Origin: Acidobacteriota bacterium
Lineage (GTDB): Bacteria > Acidobacteriota > Terriglobia > Bryobacterales > Bryobacteraceae
Assembly (NCBI GenBank): GCA_026394095.1
Contig: JAPKYY010000831.1
Coordinates: forward strand, 1-14,533
Direction of reading: 5' to 3'
Length of the DNA: 14,533 nt
Shown here: positions 2,236 through 10,513 of the stretch, one piece after another
Numbering within the stretch: the first letter of the stretch is position 1
Layout of the letters: each line of letters begins with the position of its first letter
The notes under the pieces: generated by a model
What the model was told of the DNA's origin: nothing
What the model saw: the letters and a program-made list of their open reading frames with translations, nothing else
Databases searched by the model: none
Made by a program: the position numbers and the translations under genes

Positions 2236-4362
2236 ATGCGTCTGCTCCTCCTTGCCGCCCTCAGCCTCCAGGCTCAGTCTCCCTTCACTCTCGAGCAAAT
2301 CAAAAGCTACCCCTTCCCCAATGAACTCACCGCCAGCGGCAACAAACTAGCCTGGGCCGTAAACGAGCAAGGCCTCCGCAATGTTTATGTAGCCGAAGGC
2401 CCCGCATACAAAGCTCGACGCCTCACCAACTACAAGCTCGATGATGGCCAGGAACTCACCAGCCTCGCCATCTCCCCTGACGGCAAGTACGTGGTGGTTG
2501 TCCGCGGAGGAGAACATGGCTCCAACTGGGATGTCACCCAACCCGTAAACCCTGCCTCGCTACCAACGCCATTCAAAGTTCAGATCCTCTCGATCCCCTT
2601 CAGTGGAGGCGAGCCGAAAGTATTGGCCGAAGGCGACCAGCCGGAAATCTCTCCGCGCAGCGATCAGGTACTTTTCCAGCGTCAGGGCGGCCTCTACATC
2701 GTCCCCATCGATGGCAGCAAAGCTGCGAAGTCTCTGCTCACCGCACGTGGTTCCCTGAGTCAGGCGCAATGGTCCCCCGACGGCTCGCGCGTTGCCTTCG
2801 TCTCCAATCGCAACACGCATTCCCTCATCGGTATCTACCAAAACGACACGACGCCCATCCTCTGGCTCTCCCCTACAACCAACCGGGATGCCTCCCCGCG
2901 CTGGTCACCCGATGGCAAACAACTTGCATTCACGCGGCAACCATCGCAGGGCGGTGAGCCCCGGTCGATCCTCAATCCCGAACCTACGCCCTGGTCCATC
3001 TACACAGCCAACACAAGCAATGGCGAAGCCAAACGCATCTGGAGCAGCGGCAACACTCGTCGGGATGCCATGCCCACCACTCACGGTCAGGCCAACCTCA
3101 ACTGGGCCGCCAGGGGCCGCATCACCTTCCTGTCTAACGCCGACGGATGGCCACACCTTTACAGCATTCCTGAAGATGGCGGTACCCCGCTCCAGCTCAC
3201 CTCAGGCCGCTTCATGAATGAGTACATCAATCTGAGCCCGGACAAAACTTACCTCCTCTCGACTGCCAATACAGGCCCCGACTCCAAAGATATCGATCGC
3301 CGCCACATCCTCAAGATTCCTGTCGATTCCGCCAAGCCGCAAGTGCTCACCCCGGGATTGGGTATCGAATGGACAGCAGTGCCCACTACAGACGCACTCG
3401 CCTACATTGCCGCCACGGCCCAAGCCCCGCCGATGGTCACCGTCCTGACCCAGGGCAAGTCACAAACACTGGCCCCAGAGACGCTACCCGCCAACTACCC
3501 CGCCAAGGATTTGGTGATCCCACAGCAAGTCATCTTCAACGCCCCGGACGGCACAGCCATCCATGGGCAGCTCTTCCTCCCCAAAGACGGCCCCGCGAAG
3601 AAGCCTGCCCTTGTTTTTGTACACGGCGGCCCGCCTCGCCAGATGCTCCTTGGCTGGCACTATGGCGACTATTACGCGAACGCCTACGCCACAAATCAAT
3701 ATCTGGCAAGCAGAGGCTATATCGTTCTCAGCGTCAACTACCGCCTCGGCATCGGCTATGGCGCAGACTTTCAGCAAGCTTCGAATTCGGGCAATCGCGG
3801 TGCCAGCGAATATGGCGATATCCTCGCCGCCGGAGAATTCCTCAAGGCTCACCCACAAGTAGCCCCTAATCGCATTGGCGTCTACGGCGGCTCCTATGGA
3901 GGCTACCTTACGGCGCTAGCTCTGGCCCGCAACTCAAACCTCTTTGCGGCTGGGGTGGACATCCACGGCGTGCATAACCGTTTTATTGGCCGCAACCGGC
4001 CCGCTGCGGATGCAAGCTACGAGAAGTCATCGGATGCGAACGAGGCCCGCGAGATCTCCTGGCAATCCTCCCCGGTAGCCGACATTGCCACCTGGAAGTC
4101 CCCCGTATTGCTGATCCACGGTGATGACGACCGCAACGTGGAATTCGTCCAGACCGTCGATTTAACGCATCGTCTTCAGAAGCACAAAGTCCCCTACGAG
4201 GAAATAGTGATCCCCGACGATACACATCATTTCCTGCGCCATACCAACTGGCTCAAGATCGCCAGTGCCACCGCGGACTTCTTTGATCGCAAGCTCAAAC
4301 CAGCCCCCTATTTGGTTCGGCTGCGCGCGGGGAAATGCACCCGGGCAGTGATATCGATCTGA
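2236..4362 (+). CDS. Secreted S9 family (prolyl oligopeptidase/DPP-IV type) serine peptidase
   Basis: This is a 708-residue exported peptidase. A short signal peptide (MRLLLLAALSLQAQ) leads into a TolB/WD40-like beta-propeller covering roughly residues 60-400, with repeats of the SPDGKYV, SPDGSRV and SPDGKQLAF kind. Residues about 420-690 form the alpha/beta-hydrolase domain. The catalytic triad is visible by comparison with DPP-IV: Ser553 in GGSYGGYLT, Asp632 in HGDDDRNV, and His664 in PDDTHHF. Enzymes of this family cleave peptides, often after proline, in the periplasm or outside the cell. All catalytic residues are intact. The natural C-terminus looks to be near FFDRKLKP (residue ~689); the last ~19 residues are basic and unlike the family, because they are read out of frame from the remnant antitoxin gene that follows. 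The enzyme is probably still functional with a foreign tail. The start is the ATG at 2236, the only one that includes the signal peptide. Confidence 0.92.
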   Translation: MRLLLLAALSLQAQSPFTLEQIKSYPFPNELTASGNKLAWAVNEQGLRNVYVAEGPAYKARRLTNYKLDDGQELTSLAISPDGKYVVVVRGGEHGSNWDVTQPVNPASLPTPFKVQILSIPFSGGEPKVLAEGDQPEISPRSDQVLFQRQGGLYIVPIDGSKAAKSLLTARGSLSQAQWSPDGSRVAFVSNRNTHSLIGIYQNDTTPILWLSPTTNRDASPRWSPDGKQLAFTRQPSQGGEPRSILNPEPTPWSIYTANTSNGEAKRIWSSGNTRRDAMPTTHGQANLNWAARGRITFLSNADGWPHLYSIPEDGGTPLQLTSGRFMNEYINLSPDKTYLLSTANTGPDSKDIDRRHILKIPVDSAKPQVLTPGLGIEWTAVPTTDALAYIAATAQAPPMVTVLTQGKSQTLAPETLPANYPAKDLVIPQQVIFNAPDGTAIHGQLFLPKDGPAKKPALVFVHGGPPRQMLLGWHYGDYYANAYATNQYLASRGYIVLSVNYRLGIGYGADFQQASNSGNRGASEYGDILAAGEFLKAHPQVAPNRIGVYGGSYGGYLTALALARNSNLFAAGVDIHGVHNRFIGRNRPAADASYEKSSDANEAREISWQSSPVADIATWKSPVLLIHGDDDRNVEFVQTVDLTHRLQKHKVPYEEIVIPDDTHHFLRHTNWLKIASATADFFDRKLKPAPYLVRLRAGKCTRAVISI

Positions 4363-4532
4363 TGGTCGAGTTTCAACCGGGAGTACGAATCGGGTTGATC
4401 AAGTTCGCAACATTTATTGAGGACTTGGAGTCTCTAACGGGATCTCAAGTGGATCTTGTAACCAAGCGTGGACTCAAGGCTTGGGTTCGGCCAAATGTGC
4501 TCAAAGATGCCCGGCTAATCTATGCGGCATGA
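4305..4532 (+). pseudogene. N-terminally truncated MNT-type nucleotidyltransferase (MntA-like antitoxin) remnant
   Basis: In the frame that ends at 4530-4532 the DNA encodes PLFGSAARGE followed by MHPGSDIDLMVEF, which is the GS...DxD active-site signature of minimal nucleotidyltransferases, then LTGSQVDLVTKRGLKAWVRP and a terminal IYAA, as in MntA-type antitoxins. The first possible start codon is the ATG at 4335, after the GS motif, and the frame is closed upstream by a TGA at 4284-4286 that belongs to the peptidase sequence. The normal first 20-odd residues are missing. The product that can be made (65 residues) keeps the DxD but lacks GS, so nucleotidyl transfer is unlikely. In the family, MntA adds AMP to the HepT toxin and neutralises it. 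The end overlaps the HepT start by 11 bases, the usual arrangement for this pair. A deletion joining peptidase and antitoxin genes at about 4290-4308 is the simplest explanation. Confidence 0.8.
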
Positions 4533-4878
4533 GGCCTCATTTCTCAAAGATATCCTTATCGCATGTGGCAAAATTGAAGCCATCATTGCTTCGACTTCCG
4601 AAGAATCATTTCTGAGGGACGAGGTCTTGACTGCCGCCGTCCTTCATCACCTCACCGTCATTGGAGAGGCTATCGGTCGTCTTTCGATTGAGTTGCGACA
4701 ACGCCACCCAAAACTCCCATGGAAGCAGATTGTTGCGATGCGCCACAGAATCGTCCATGCGTATTTCGATCTGGACTGGCAAATTCTTTGGGACGCAGCA
4801 ATCGCGGATGTGCCAGAACTGAGCCAACAGATTCAGGGGATCCTTTCTGCAGATTTTCCTGAAATCGAACGAGGTTAG
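4522..4878 (+). CDS. HepT-like (DUF86) HEPN-domain ribonuclease toxin
   Basis: This 118-residue, all-helical protein belongs to the HepT/DUF86 HEPN family, the toxin half of MNT/HEPN modules. In characterised pairs HepT is an RNase that acts on cellular RNA and is silenced by AMP groups placed by the partner nucleotidyltransferase on the tyrosine of its active-site motif. That motif is complete here: R74-x4-H79-x-Y81 (RHRIVHAY). Other family marks are the early LKDILIACGKIE helix, VIGEAIGRLS around residue 50, PWKQIVAMR before the motif, and LWDAAIADVPEL near the C-terminus. Length is normal and no break is visible. The start ATG at 4522 overlaps the end of the antitoxin frame by 11 bases, so it was probably translated by coupling. 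With the antitoxin truncated, the toxin may be weakly expressed, inactive for other reasons, or held by an antitoxin elsewhere; the sequence does not tell which. Confidence 0.88.
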   Translation: MRHEASFLKDILIACGKIEAIIASTSEESFLRDEVLTAAVLHHLTVIGEAIGRLSIELRQRHPKLPWKQIVAMRHRIVHAYFDLDWQILWDAAIADVPELSQQIQGILSADFPEIERG

Positions 4879-4920
4879 TATCGCGGACACGGCGCTGAGC
4901 TACACGTTAACCTGTAAGTA

Positions 4921-5247
4921 ATGTCCGGCGCGCTCACCAATCCCCAACTCAAGCATCTGCGTGGTTTAGCCCACAATGCTCCCCCTGCCCTGCAACTGGG
5001 CAAAAAGGGTCTAAGTCCCGAATTCCTCCAGGTCTTCGAATTTACACTCTCAAACCAGGAACTCATCAAGCTCCGCTTTTCCAACTTTAAAGAAGAGCGC
5101 AAAGAACTCTCTGCTTCTCTTGTCGAATCCACTGGCGCTGCCCTGGTTTCACTCGTCGGCCACACAGCCGTCTTCTATCGACAAAGCCCAGACCCGGACA
5201 AGCGCAAGATCGTGCTTCCACGCCCCGCAGCCCCAAAGAAGGATTAA
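4921..5247 (+). CDS. yhbY: YhbY family (CRM domain) RNA-binding protein
   Basis: A 108-residue CRS1/YhbY (CRM) domain protein. Visible family features are LTNPQLKHLRGLAHNAPPALQLG, the GxxG RNA-contact loop as GKKG at residues 27-30, HEL-like NQELIKLRF around residue 45, and the closing LVSLVGHTAVFYRQS with a basic tail ending in KIVLPRP. CRM proteins bind structured RNA; YhbY in other bacteria is associated with pre-ribosomal particles, so a role in ribosome assembly is the likely one, in the cytoplasm. The ATG at 4921 gives the standard length. The Shine-Dalgarno is weak (GTAAG just before the start). The following 42-codon ORF begins two bases after this stop codon, so the two probably share a message. 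Confidence 0.93.
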   Translation: MSGALTNPQLKHLRGLAHNAPPALQLGKKGLSPEFLQVFEFTLSNQELIKLRFSNFKEERKELSASLVESTGAALVSLVGHTAVFYRQSPDPDKRKIVLPRPAAPKKD

Positions 5248-5438: not shown

Positions 5439-8400
5439 TTACCAGTTGAACTTCAAACGCACCTGCATGGTACGCGGGCTGAAATTCTGATTGGAAGTCA
5501 GAGCCGGGAACAAGGTCCCGAAGTTGGCGTCATTCGGATTCGTGTTGAAGCTGTCGTTGCGGCCAAAGTAATACTTGTTGATCGCATTGAAGGCTTCGAA
5601 GCCGAACTGGAAGCGGTAGCGTTCTTTGAAGATGGTGGTCTTCAGGAGCGAAGCGTCGAGCGTCGGCACGCGGTGCTTGCGCAGGTTGCCGAAGAGCGGG
5701 GCAGTCTGGCGGCCGGGAGCCGTCTGACCGGGTGAGAAGTCACCAACCCAAAGCCACGAATAGGTGCTGAGGTCGTTGCCGCAACCGGAGGCAAGCGAGT
5801 AAGGCATAGCGCTACGAGTTCCATCGTTGTTCTGACGGACCACGCAATTGCTAAACCCACGAACCTGATGCTGGTTCCAGTTGATGTCCTTGGTGCGAGG
5901 ATCCTTCAGAGGCCGCACGTTGCCAGGCAGGTTGGCCGGTTCGCCAGAGGCCCACTGGAAGAAGCTGGTTACCTGCCAGCCGCTTACAAGCTTGTCTGCG
6001 ATCCCTTTGGCACCGGAGAACATCTTCTTGCCCTTGCCAAATGGCAGATCGTAGCTGCTGGTGAGCTTGAAGACATGCGGACGGTCATTGAAGTACAGTG
6101 CCCGCTGTTCTACGCCGTTAAACGGATCCATAAATCCGTCACGATCAAGCATACGAGACCACGTGTAATTGGTGATCAGCGTCAGGCCGGACATACGCAC
6201 GTTGTAGTTTACCTGCAACGAGTTGTAGTCGATACGGCCAGAGTTCAAGCCGTCACGGGTCAGGTTTCCGTTGAACTGCGGGAAGGGCCGGTTCAACTGG
6301 TAACGCGACAAAGTGCTGGCGGTAAAGAAGCTGGTGCCACGGAAGGCCTGATTGCCAAGGAAGGGGTTCGGCAACTGTTCGTTACAGAAGTTGGGGAGCC
6401 CACCCTGCAATGCATCGCACTGCCGCATGAACTGCGCGCTCGGGATGTTGAGAGGTCGCGAAGTTTCACGGTTGCGAGTGATGCTGCCGATGTAGCTCAG
6501 GTCGAGCACCGACTTCCGGTTCACCTGGAACTGGATACCCAAAGAGAACTGGTCGATTGCGGGGATCTTGAAGTCCGGGGTCCAGTGATTGAAGTCACGG
6601 CCCAGGAAGGTGTTGGCGCCAAGCGAAGATCCGCTCGGACGGGCAAAGCCGTTCGGCAGAGGGTTGCTCAGCAAGCCAGTGATTGGCGTACGGCCGTCAT
6701 CGAGGCTGGCCACAATCGGCGTTACCGTGCTGAAGCCCAGGCTGCGCAGATTGTTATTGCTCGGGTTCATATAGTAACGGCCCCAGCCGCCACGAACAAC
6801 CAGACGGTCGTTAACCGAGTAAGCGGCACCAATGCGAGGCTGCCAGGTGTTCTTGTAGAGATTGCCGGAAAAAGCGTCGTTGCCACCAACGCCCGCGAAA
6901 TTCAGACCACCGCTCAAATTAGGCAACGACGGAATCTGGCCGCGCAGAGGCGAAGCCACAGTCTGGTCGAAGCCACGGTTCAAACGGTTGTACTTCTCGC
7001 TGGCAGGCATGTTGATGTCATAACGGAGGCCCAGGTTGAGGGTCAGCTTGCGGTTCACCTTCCAGTCGTCCTGGAAGTAGAACGCGCTGTACCAGTTCTG
7101 ATAAAACGGGTAGAGCGGGAAGTTCTGCTGCCCGCCAAGGGTGCGGTCACCACCGAAGTTGCTCGGCATACCCAGCAGGAAGCTGGCAAAGCTGTCGCCA
7201 GCATCTGCCTGAGCCTGGTTCCAGTTGCGGCGTGTCCACTGGTCATTGAACTGGAACTGCAGAATGTTGCCGCTATTCTGTTGGATGAAGTGGATGCGGC
7301 GAACGTCAACTCCGGCCTTTAGCGTGTGCTTGCCGGCATTCTTGGTTACGCTGCCCATGATTCCATAATTGTTGGTGATATTGATACCCTGATCGCGGCC
7401 AAGTGAAGAGTAGCCGGCCAGATCCCAACGGCCGAAGAAGGCTGGCGAGGGGAGTTGGCTCACAAGGTTTGAGGGCAGGCCGAGCTTGGTGAGATCGAAG
7501 TTCAGATTGTCTCGGCCAAAACCTTTCTCGATGAAGCGGTTGTAGGAAGCGCGCACGTTGAACACTGTGGTCGGGTTTAGAGTGGTCACCCAGTCGATCA
7601 CATATGCGTCGTTAATGCGCTGGAAGGGCTGCTGTCCGTCCATGCCAGGGCCAGAGCAGATGCCGTTTGAGCAACGCTCTTCCGTGCGGTCGTTTGAGGC
7701 ATGACGGATGAAGGTGCGATGCTTATCGCCAAAATTCCAGTCGAACTTCAGAATGAGGTTGTAGAAATCATCGTTGTTCACATAGGTCGGCAGGATGAAG
7801 TTGGTTGTCGAATAGCGCTGGCCGGGCGAGGTAGCGTTCGCCTTGGGCATGAATGCCATGACGTTGCGGGCTACGGGATCGATGCGGCTGGCAGGGATCT
7901 GATTGTTCGGGAATTGCGAACGCACAGGATCGCCATTTACCTGCGTCGCATTGAGCGGATCAAAGATCAGAATCGGTTGGCCGTTAGCCTGGGTCAACTT
8001 GCTGAAGTCTCCGGTACGCATCTCATCAGCAGCGTAGCTGTTACGCAGCGGGTTGGGCGTACCTTCGCGATAGCCTTCGTAGCTGCCCATGTAGAAGAGC
8101 TTTACTTTGCTTGTTTTGGTCAATAGCTTGGGAATATAGATCGGGCCATCCATCTCGACGCCATATTGATCCATGAAGCCATTCGGACGTGGTGCGTTTG
8201 CTACCCCGGCTGAGTTGCGCCCAAGGGCATTGTTCTGGAAAGAATTTGCATTCAGCGAAGCGCGGCGCATGAATTCATAGACCGTACCGTGATGCTGTCC
8301 ACCGCCACTCTTGAGAACGACGTTCACAACGCCGCCACCAGTGCGGCCATAAGCCGCGTCATAGGAATTGGTTTGAATTGTGAATTCCTGAACGGCGTCT

Positions 8401-9183: not shown

Positions 9184-10513
9184 ATGCGGCCACTGATTCT
9201 GCTTTACCTGATCGCCTTAGCCACCACGCCATTCCCGCATCTGCTCCACAACGCCCCTACGCCCGAAAAGCACCTAAACGAGACGATGCCCGGCGGCATC
9301 GCTAGCCTCGATTACGATAACGATTCGCTCCCTGACCTCTTCTTCACCAACGCTGCCCAACCCAGTCGCCTCTACCGCAACCTCGGCAACAATCAGTGGC
9401 AGGACGTAACGCACCGGCTGGTCCATCTCGGCTGGCTTCTTCGATTACGACCACGACGGCGACCTCGACATTTTCATCGTCAATTACGTCCAATTTGATC
9501 CAGCTAAAGAACTCTTCTGCGGTGACTCCAAAGCGGGCTATCGTACGTACTGCCACCCCCGCCACTACGCAGGGCTGCCCAACTCGCTGTTTCGTAACGA
9601 TGGCCAGGGCCGCTTCACCGACGTCTCAGCCGCATCAGGGATCGCCGCGCACATCGGTAAAGGCATGGCCCTCGCATTCGCCGACTACGACCGCGATGGC
9701 TGGCTTGATGTTTTGGTCACCAACGATGCTGTCCCCAATTTTCTTTTCCGCAACAACCAGAACGGCACCTTCACAGAACGCGCTCTCATCGCTGGGATTG
9801 GCCTCAACGATGATGGCCGGGCTCTTTCGAGCATGGGTGCCGACTTCCGCGACATCAACAACGACGGAAGCCCCGACATCTTCATCACGGCACTGGCCAA
9901 CGAAACCTTCCCGCTTTTCCAATCGCTCCCCAAAGGCCTCTTTGAAGACATCACCTACCCAACTCGGATTGGCGCATCCACACTCTCCTATTCCGGCTGG
10001 TCTACCGGCATCTACGATTTGGACAACGACGGATGGAAAGACATCTTCACGGCCAACGGCGATGTCAACGACAACACGGAAACCTTCTCGAGCCGTAAAT
10101 CGAAGCAGCAGAATCTGATCCTCTGGAACACAGGCAAGAACACCTTTCGCCCCGAAGCCATCGGCGGCGCAGCGCGCCACCGTGGTGCCGCCTTCGCCGA
10201 CCTCAATAACGACGGTGCCATCGACATCGTAACCTCAAGCCTCGGCGAAGCCCCCACCATCTGGCTCAACAACCGGGCCAAAGCAAACCACTGGCTCATC
10301 ATCGAGACAACACTAGGAGCCGAAGTCCTGATCGGCAACCAGCACAACCAGGCCACCCAGGCAGTCGGCTACGCGAGTTCGTCTTCTCCTCAAGTGCACT
10401 TCGGTATGGGCGCTGCAACCAGCGTTGAAAAGATCGAAGTCCGCTTCCCCGGCGGCAAGATCAAAACACTCTTCAATCAAAAAACAAACCAGCGCATTCG
10501 AGTTCTCCCCTAG
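9184..10513 (+). pseudogene. Secreted FG-GAP/VCBS repeat protein with C-terminal ASPIC/UnbV domain, split by a frameshift
   Basis: Two frames together encode one CRTAC1/ASPIC-like protein of about 440 residues. The first (from ATG 9184) gives a signal peptide (MRPLILLYLIALATT), ETMPGGIASLDYDNDSLPD and RLYRNLGNNQWQDVTHR. The homologous sequence then continues in the next frame from about 9413 as TGWSISAGFFDYDHDGDLD and runs to a stop at 10511-10513. The second frame has a stop at 9407-9409, so the two cannot be one ORF without a shift between about 9407 and 9421. Six DxDxDGxxD calcium-binding repeats are present (first: DYDNDSLPD, with S for G), implying a beta-propeller, followed by an ASPIC/UnbV region (NHWLIIE, VHFGMGAATSVEKIEVRFPGGKIKTL). 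The gene may be a recent pseudogene or contain a sequencing error. Restart within the second frame is possible at ATG 9665 but would lose the signal peptide. It faces the TPR gene, whose stop is one base away. Confidence 0.82.

Follow-up and report, generated by a model that had tools for sequence, protein, structure and literature searches.

The window analyzed here is the whole of one contig (C817, 14,533 nt) from an assembly of 5.05 Mb in 1077 contigs with a completeness of 89%. On its forward strand, an S9-family peptidase gene is followed by the remnant of an MNT antitoxin gene, a HEPN toxin gene and a gene for a YhbY-domain protein (table 1). Further along the contig (positions 9184–10513), one gene is split across two frames near 9430 and is either a pseudogene or the result of an indel error; we take its product to resemble an FG-GAP/VCBS repeat protein.

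Table 1. Features of the peptidase–antitoxin–toxin region in the window
Feature	Position	Strand	Remarks
S9-family peptidase ORF, 708 aa	2236..4362	+	Catalytic part intact; last 19 codons run on into the antitoxin remnant
TGA closing the antitoxin frame upstream	4284..4286	+	Frame reading
Startless MNT (NTP_transf_2) antitoxin gene remnant	4287..4532	+	Stop TGA 4530–4532; profile and homologue alignment
Deletion junction; the flanks shared with G004 are 10 nt apart here and 122 nt apart there (net loss 112 nt)	4298..4307	+	Alignment with G004; breakpoints approximate
Peptidase run-on tail, APYLVRLRAGKCTRAVISI + TGA (4360–4362)	4303..4362	+	Relatives stop earlier
GSx10DxD motif, intact in the DNA	4314..4358	+	Spelled by GSAARGEMHPGSDID
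65-aa ORF without GS	4335..4532	+	Only start codon ahead of DxD; ORF reading and alignment
TGATG, peptidase stop overlapping an ATG of the antitoxin frame	4360..4364	+	Possible re-initiation site
HEPN toxin (HepT-like), 118 aa, full length	4522..4878	+	RX4HXY is RHRIVHAY at 4741–4764
CRS1/YhbY-domain gene	4921..5247	+	Right neighbor; in G007 directly after the peptidase

The antitoxin frame reads TGA (4284–4286) TCG CAA GCT CAA ACC AGC CCC CTA TTT GGT TCG GCT GCG CGC GGG GAA ATG (4335). From 4287 to 4529, in frame with this ATG, it translates as SQAQTSP-LFGSAARGEMHPGSDIDL..., which is an MNT antitoxin from LFGS onward. No ATG, GTG or TTG was found between the TGA and the ATG when the frame was read codon by codon, and CTG, ATT, ATC and ATA, which are rare start codons, are likewise absent from this interval. 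The Pfam profile NTP_transf_2 matched the frame with 54.5 bits (cut-off 21, E = 1.5e-14), well past what chance would give, over positions 19–92 of 93, indicating that only the N-terminus is missing. The window therefore holds the GSx10DxD motif in its DNA with no start codon before it, and it encodes no complete NTP_transf_2 antitoxin protein with this motif. Judged by its reading frames, the module is a broken member of the HEPN/MNT type rather than a working one.

The ORF that starts at 4335 begins at the residue corresponding to position 45 of P0001, an intact homologue described below, and its product lacks both the GS motif and the strands and helices that lie before residue 43 in the structural model of P0001; loss of activity is thus very likely. 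In the available part of one study (PMC7641770), substitution of GS or of DxD abolished toxin modification in the Shewanella pair, as did substitution of GS in an archaeal pair, and the available part of another (PMC11586414) gives the same outcome for GS and for DxD substitutions in a Legionella MNT protein.

Read in the peptidase frame, the bases at the start of the remnant give DRKLKP, then APYLVRLRAGKCTRAVISI and then TGA. In relatives, the peptidase ends in KLSSR* (G004), KLKP* (G007) or KLN* (G002). The window peptidase also has KLKP before its odd tail, so that its last 19 codons are run-on sequence. The peptidase stop overlaps an ATG of the antitoxin frame, and a product restarted at this TGATG would be without DxD as well. 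A preliminary description of this DNA had placed the GS motif directly upstream of the ATG at 4335 and in its frame, behind a TGA that closes the frame; it had also noted that the ORF from 4335 retains DxD without GS, and that the same bases encode, in another frame, the odd last ~19 residues of the peptidase. Codon reading confirmed all of this.

The toxin gene overlaps the antitoxin frame, in which its start lies 11 nt deep. The toxin is HepT-like, with a score of 84.5 bits against the Pfam HepT-like profile (cut-off 23.5) and the RX4HXY motif in place. A search of PDB with its sequence gave no match at E ≤ 0.001, and PADLOC returned none for the toxin and the candidate family PDC-S09 for the antitoxin.

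We also compared the locus with related genomes. DNA from 3900 to 4920 was matched in six of the eight genomes of the genus (its own included), and peptidase and module were both matched only in the window and in G004, the latter in two pieces (87% and 79% identity). Within the 122 nt that G004 carries at the junction lie the stop codon of the peptidase (KLSSR*), the spacer between the two genes, the start of the antitoxin and its first 30 codons, ahead of LFGS; the missing stretch is thus present at the same locus in a relative. The G004 module occupies the same place as that of the window, in the order peptidase, antitoxin, toxin and yhbY, and its damage is a mirror image: the antitoxin (104 aa) is intact between a peptidase ending in DRKLSSR* and the HEPN toxin, and the toxin is frameshifted by a net +1 nt near codon 63 (module at L016 1207–1576). 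At the corresponding locus of G007 there is no module, and yhbY follows the KLKP* end of the peptidase.

Two other readings of this comparison were considered and set aside. Independent acquisition of the module in the window genome and in G004 is unlikely, as the module stretch common to both has 79% DNA identity and sits in the same place. A single base error that, once corrected, would restore a longer frame is insufficient, because a tblastn search with P0001 at the window locus matched only residues 36–109 and because what precedes the junction is peptidase DNA, with 94% protein identity to G004 in a single match over peptidase residues 15–687.

Homologues of the antitoxin were searched for among 5.8 billion proteins. 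P0001 (109 aa), from a 932-nt contig of the source 'lgn', agrees with the window antitoxin frame from LFGS onward without a single difference (74 of 74 residues) and has 35 further residues in front. A near-identical intact allele therefore exists, and the lesion in the window looks recent, unless it is polymorphic or an assembly error. Among the 120 homologues listed of 428 found, 119 have GSx10DxD, the sole exception being P0118 (81 aa), and the shortest, at 75 aa, retains GS, so that a conserved short antitoxin was rejected. The antitoxin P0003 (86%) and the toxin P0122 (90%) are both given with a longest contig of 90,459 nt and thus probably represent an intact pair in another relative. 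A contig scan with P0001 gave seven loci, the best two of which (L026 and L027, from Bryobacterales MAGs) have the same upstream DNA as G198 and G048 in the stretch compared. Named matches (P0081, P0155, L026 and L027) make a Bryobacterales acidobacterium the probable host. The deletion proposed in the preliminary description, which would have fused the 3' end of the peptidase gene to the middle of the antitoxin gene, is supported by these data: in G004 an intact antitoxin follows a peptidase that stops just after FFDRKL, G007 and G002 have comparably early stops, and intact homologues reveal the missing N-terminus, which P0001 supplies.

Relative to G004, the shared antitoxin part has a dN/dS of 0.08, at a nearly saturated dS of 1.26, and codons 1–62 of the toxin have 0.10; the peptidase gave 0.06 and YhbY 0.08. 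The values for the two module genes fit a recent lesion in genes that would formerly have been under constraint.

The DNA upstream of the antitoxin start was examined at 20 related loci whose start had been placed from the profile, including G117 (59%) and G048 (with an antitoxin frameshifted further on); the antitoxin-bearing loci G012, G094, G114, G029, G015, G083 and G160 fell outside this count. The -10-like hexamer CATAAT occurs at -21 to -18 before the start at 18 of these loci (0.07 expected from simple base shuffles). Of the two exceptions, G004 has CAAAAT at roughly that position and G150 has neither hexamer. So close a box implies a very short leader, and it may serve as promoter, as operator or as both. 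The first ATG of P0001 would fall 15 nt before the MNQ start, where one would expect the ATG of a CATAATG at -19.

Neither CATAAT nor TATAAT is present on the plus strand of the window between 3800 and 4900, and a single CAAAAT, at 4569, falls within the toxin gene. A scan of 4150–4950 for sigma-70-like sites found none, where shuffles gave only 0.5, so that this absence carries little weight. Because the box precedes the antitoxin start in relatives and none lies near the window module, the promoter was probably lost with the deletion. At the toxin start, none of 15 contexts inspected had a well-spaced Shine-Dalgarno sequence; in G166, G057 and G207 a GAGG lies about 12–13 nt before the start. 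As the toxin start also lies inside the antitoxin frame, toxin translation is probably coupled to that of the antitoxin. Promoter loss could account for the tolerance of a toxin that lacks its partner. The toxin may not be fully silent, since read-through from the peptidase or ribosome restart at TGATG may still supply some of it.

We collected the matches listed at no less than 60% identity to P0001 or P0121 in 237 genomes of the family. This gave 32 loci, which were classed by reading profile-search matches and whose species are not independent; G172, G117 and contig C302 of G056 were left out as below 60%. Among the matches listed, both genes are intact at 12 of the 32 loci, the antitoxin is intact and the toxin damaged or absent at 13 (G004 included), the antitoxin is broken and the toxin intact at two (the window and G093), and both are broken at five. 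Two assignments are uncertain, namely G094, whose toxin has a changed N-terminus, and G150, whose toxin break is near a contig end. Toxin–antitoxin decay is expected to be toxin-first, because loss of the antitoxin first should be harmful, and the split of 13 versus 2 among the 32 loci listed agrees with this expectation (two-sided binomial test, P = 0.007 for 2/15 and 0.013 for 2/14, with loci that are related and not independent).

Inspection of the downstream ORFs by eye revealed no trace of the toxin at six of the 13 loci with an intact antitoxin alone (G226, G148, G153, G114, G029 and G015), some of which may have lacked this toxin from the outset or have a different one. At L111 (G029), the MNT antitoxin gene has no HEPN toxin and is followed by another ORF, presumably for a PIN-domain-like protein. 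At L109 (G153), an unrelated-looking open frame of 243 residues starts at the usual position of the toxin start.

The second locus with a broken antitoxin, L102 of G093, has antitoxin fragments in two frames, next to what we take to be a transposase end, beside a HEPN toxin of intact length. Its motif reads RHRIAHAC, with the Tyr of RX4HXY replaced by Cys. RX4HXY is kept in the window toxin and in the 12 toxins of the class with both genes intact, and the window alone of the 32 loci listed has a toxin with intact RX4HXY beside a broken antitoxin. The window thus makes survival of an intact toxin beside a broken antitoxin a testable matter, and simultaneous loss of the promoter is the simplest answer.

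The genome has a second MNT/HEPN locus (G000 contig C5, about 5457–5962; L011 1456–1961), which is also broken, as if fused by a deletion.

We consider it likely that a recent deletion turned the antitoxin into a pseudogene and left the toxin gene intact, and that the same lesion disarms both. The sequences themselves establish that a stretch present in G004 is missing here, that the antitoxin start is absent, that the toxin is full length and that intact alleles exist elsewhere. In the proposed scenario, a HEPN/MNT module stood between the S9 peptidase gene and yhbY in the window genome, as in G004, and a deletion (net 112 nt versus G004) would have removed the peptidase stop, the short intergenic region and the antitoxin start together with about 30 codons at the front of the antitoxin gene (35 from the first Met of P0001). 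The remnant would then be a pseudogene unable to make a GSx10DxD adenylyltransferase, next to an intact toxin gene. The truncated product is predicted to be inactive. As the toxin start lies in the antitoxin frame without a well-placed ribosome-binding site, toxin output would probably drop to leak from peptidase expression. A single lesion would thereby disarm both genes, which should make it survivable.

An assembly or binning artefact, in which the true genome has an intact antitoxin and the contig is short by about 112 nt, is unlikely but is the chief alternative; in its favor, the assembly is fragmented (the 1077 contigs at 89% completeness given above), the public allele P0001 encodes the identical 74 residues, another gene on the same contig looks frameshifted and the second module on C5 is likewise broken at a junction. 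However, the coding sequence common with G004 has no other frame break: peptidase residues 15–687, part of an inositol-phosphate synthase (246 aa), YhbY (108 aa) and a small ORF after YhbY all match in one piece. No second copy or intact allele was found in the assembly, and a loss on the scale of 112 nt is unlike a homopolymer error. The C5 locus also bears on whether the toxin is still made and restrained in trans by a different MNT antitoxin encoded elsewhere in the genome; at this completeness, an unseen partner is conceivable. The C5 antitoxin, however, is 37% identical over 67 residues, and its family match breaks off at profile position 74 of 93. The match of the C5 toxin begins at position 14 of 120, 8 nt further on and in another frame, and two further MNT-like matches in the genome score low (23 and 21.9 bits). 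Restraint in trans is therefore very improbable.

Still less probable is a functional arrangement in which frameshifting yields a peptidase–antitoxin fusion with both GS and DxD. The antitoxin frame is open from 4287, and the overlap that it forms with the peptidase frame, ending at 4362, includes five consecutive C (4304–4308); yet the product would still be without the strands and helix that open the MNT fold at its N-terminus. Moreover, the antitoxins of G004 and P0001 are complete and encoded separately, and nothing but the loss distinguishes the remnant from P0001. The least credible reading is that the 65-aa ORF, or a non-canonical start before LFGS, gives a functional short antitoxin. 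The ATG at 4335 with DxD downstream would allow the former, but no 65-aa homologue was seen among the 120 listed of 428 found, the interval ahead of this ATG has none of the start codons named above, and the GS substitutions cited above, in the available parts of both sources, abolish modification in published pairs.

If the deletion pseudogenized the antitoxin as proposed, the order of genes in the module acquires a further meaning, because it is this order that lets a deletion at the front remove promoter, start and catalytic half together. It is conceivable, although we regard it as doubtful, that gene order, with the toxin start buried in the antitoxin frame, serves as a built-in fail-safe: front deletions that kill the antitoxin would also switch the toxin off, and the mutants could survive with an intact but silent toxin gene at the same time as related populations keep intact alleles in circulation.

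Known HepT/MntA (HEPN/MNT, type VII) systems, such as SO_3166/SO_3165 of Shewanella oneidensis, have a GSx10DxD antitoxin and an RX4HXY toxin encoded by adjacent genes, as here, according to the available part of PMC7641770. Unlike in these systems, the window antitoxin lacks its start and N-terminus. The model of P0001 (pLDDT 87) matches the MntA structures 7bxo and 6m6u and the minimal nucleotidyltransferase 1wot (best E = 1.3e-7). For the AlphaFold model of the window toxin (pLDDT 86), the best ten PDB matches in Foldseek are chains of 7ae2, 7ae6, 7ae8 and 7ae9, with probabilities of 0.96–0.99 and weak E-values of 0.14 to 0.40; the best structural likeness is to HEPN-MNT of Aphanizomenon flos-aquae (7ae2, 7ae8 and 7ae9), at 15–20% identity. 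Scores against the NCBIfam models stay below their cut-off of 60, with 48.5 for P0001 and 47.2 for the window frame (MntA_antitoxin) and 29.2 for the toxin (HepT_toxin), suggesting that the window genes are distant from characterized pairs. A case like this one is not described in the titles and opening parts of abstracts surveyed. On the evidence of its DNA, the locus is best regarded as a pseudogene made by deletion, an ordinary form of decay in a module of known type; its decay has taken an uncommon direction, for whose survival promoter loss is a plausible reason.
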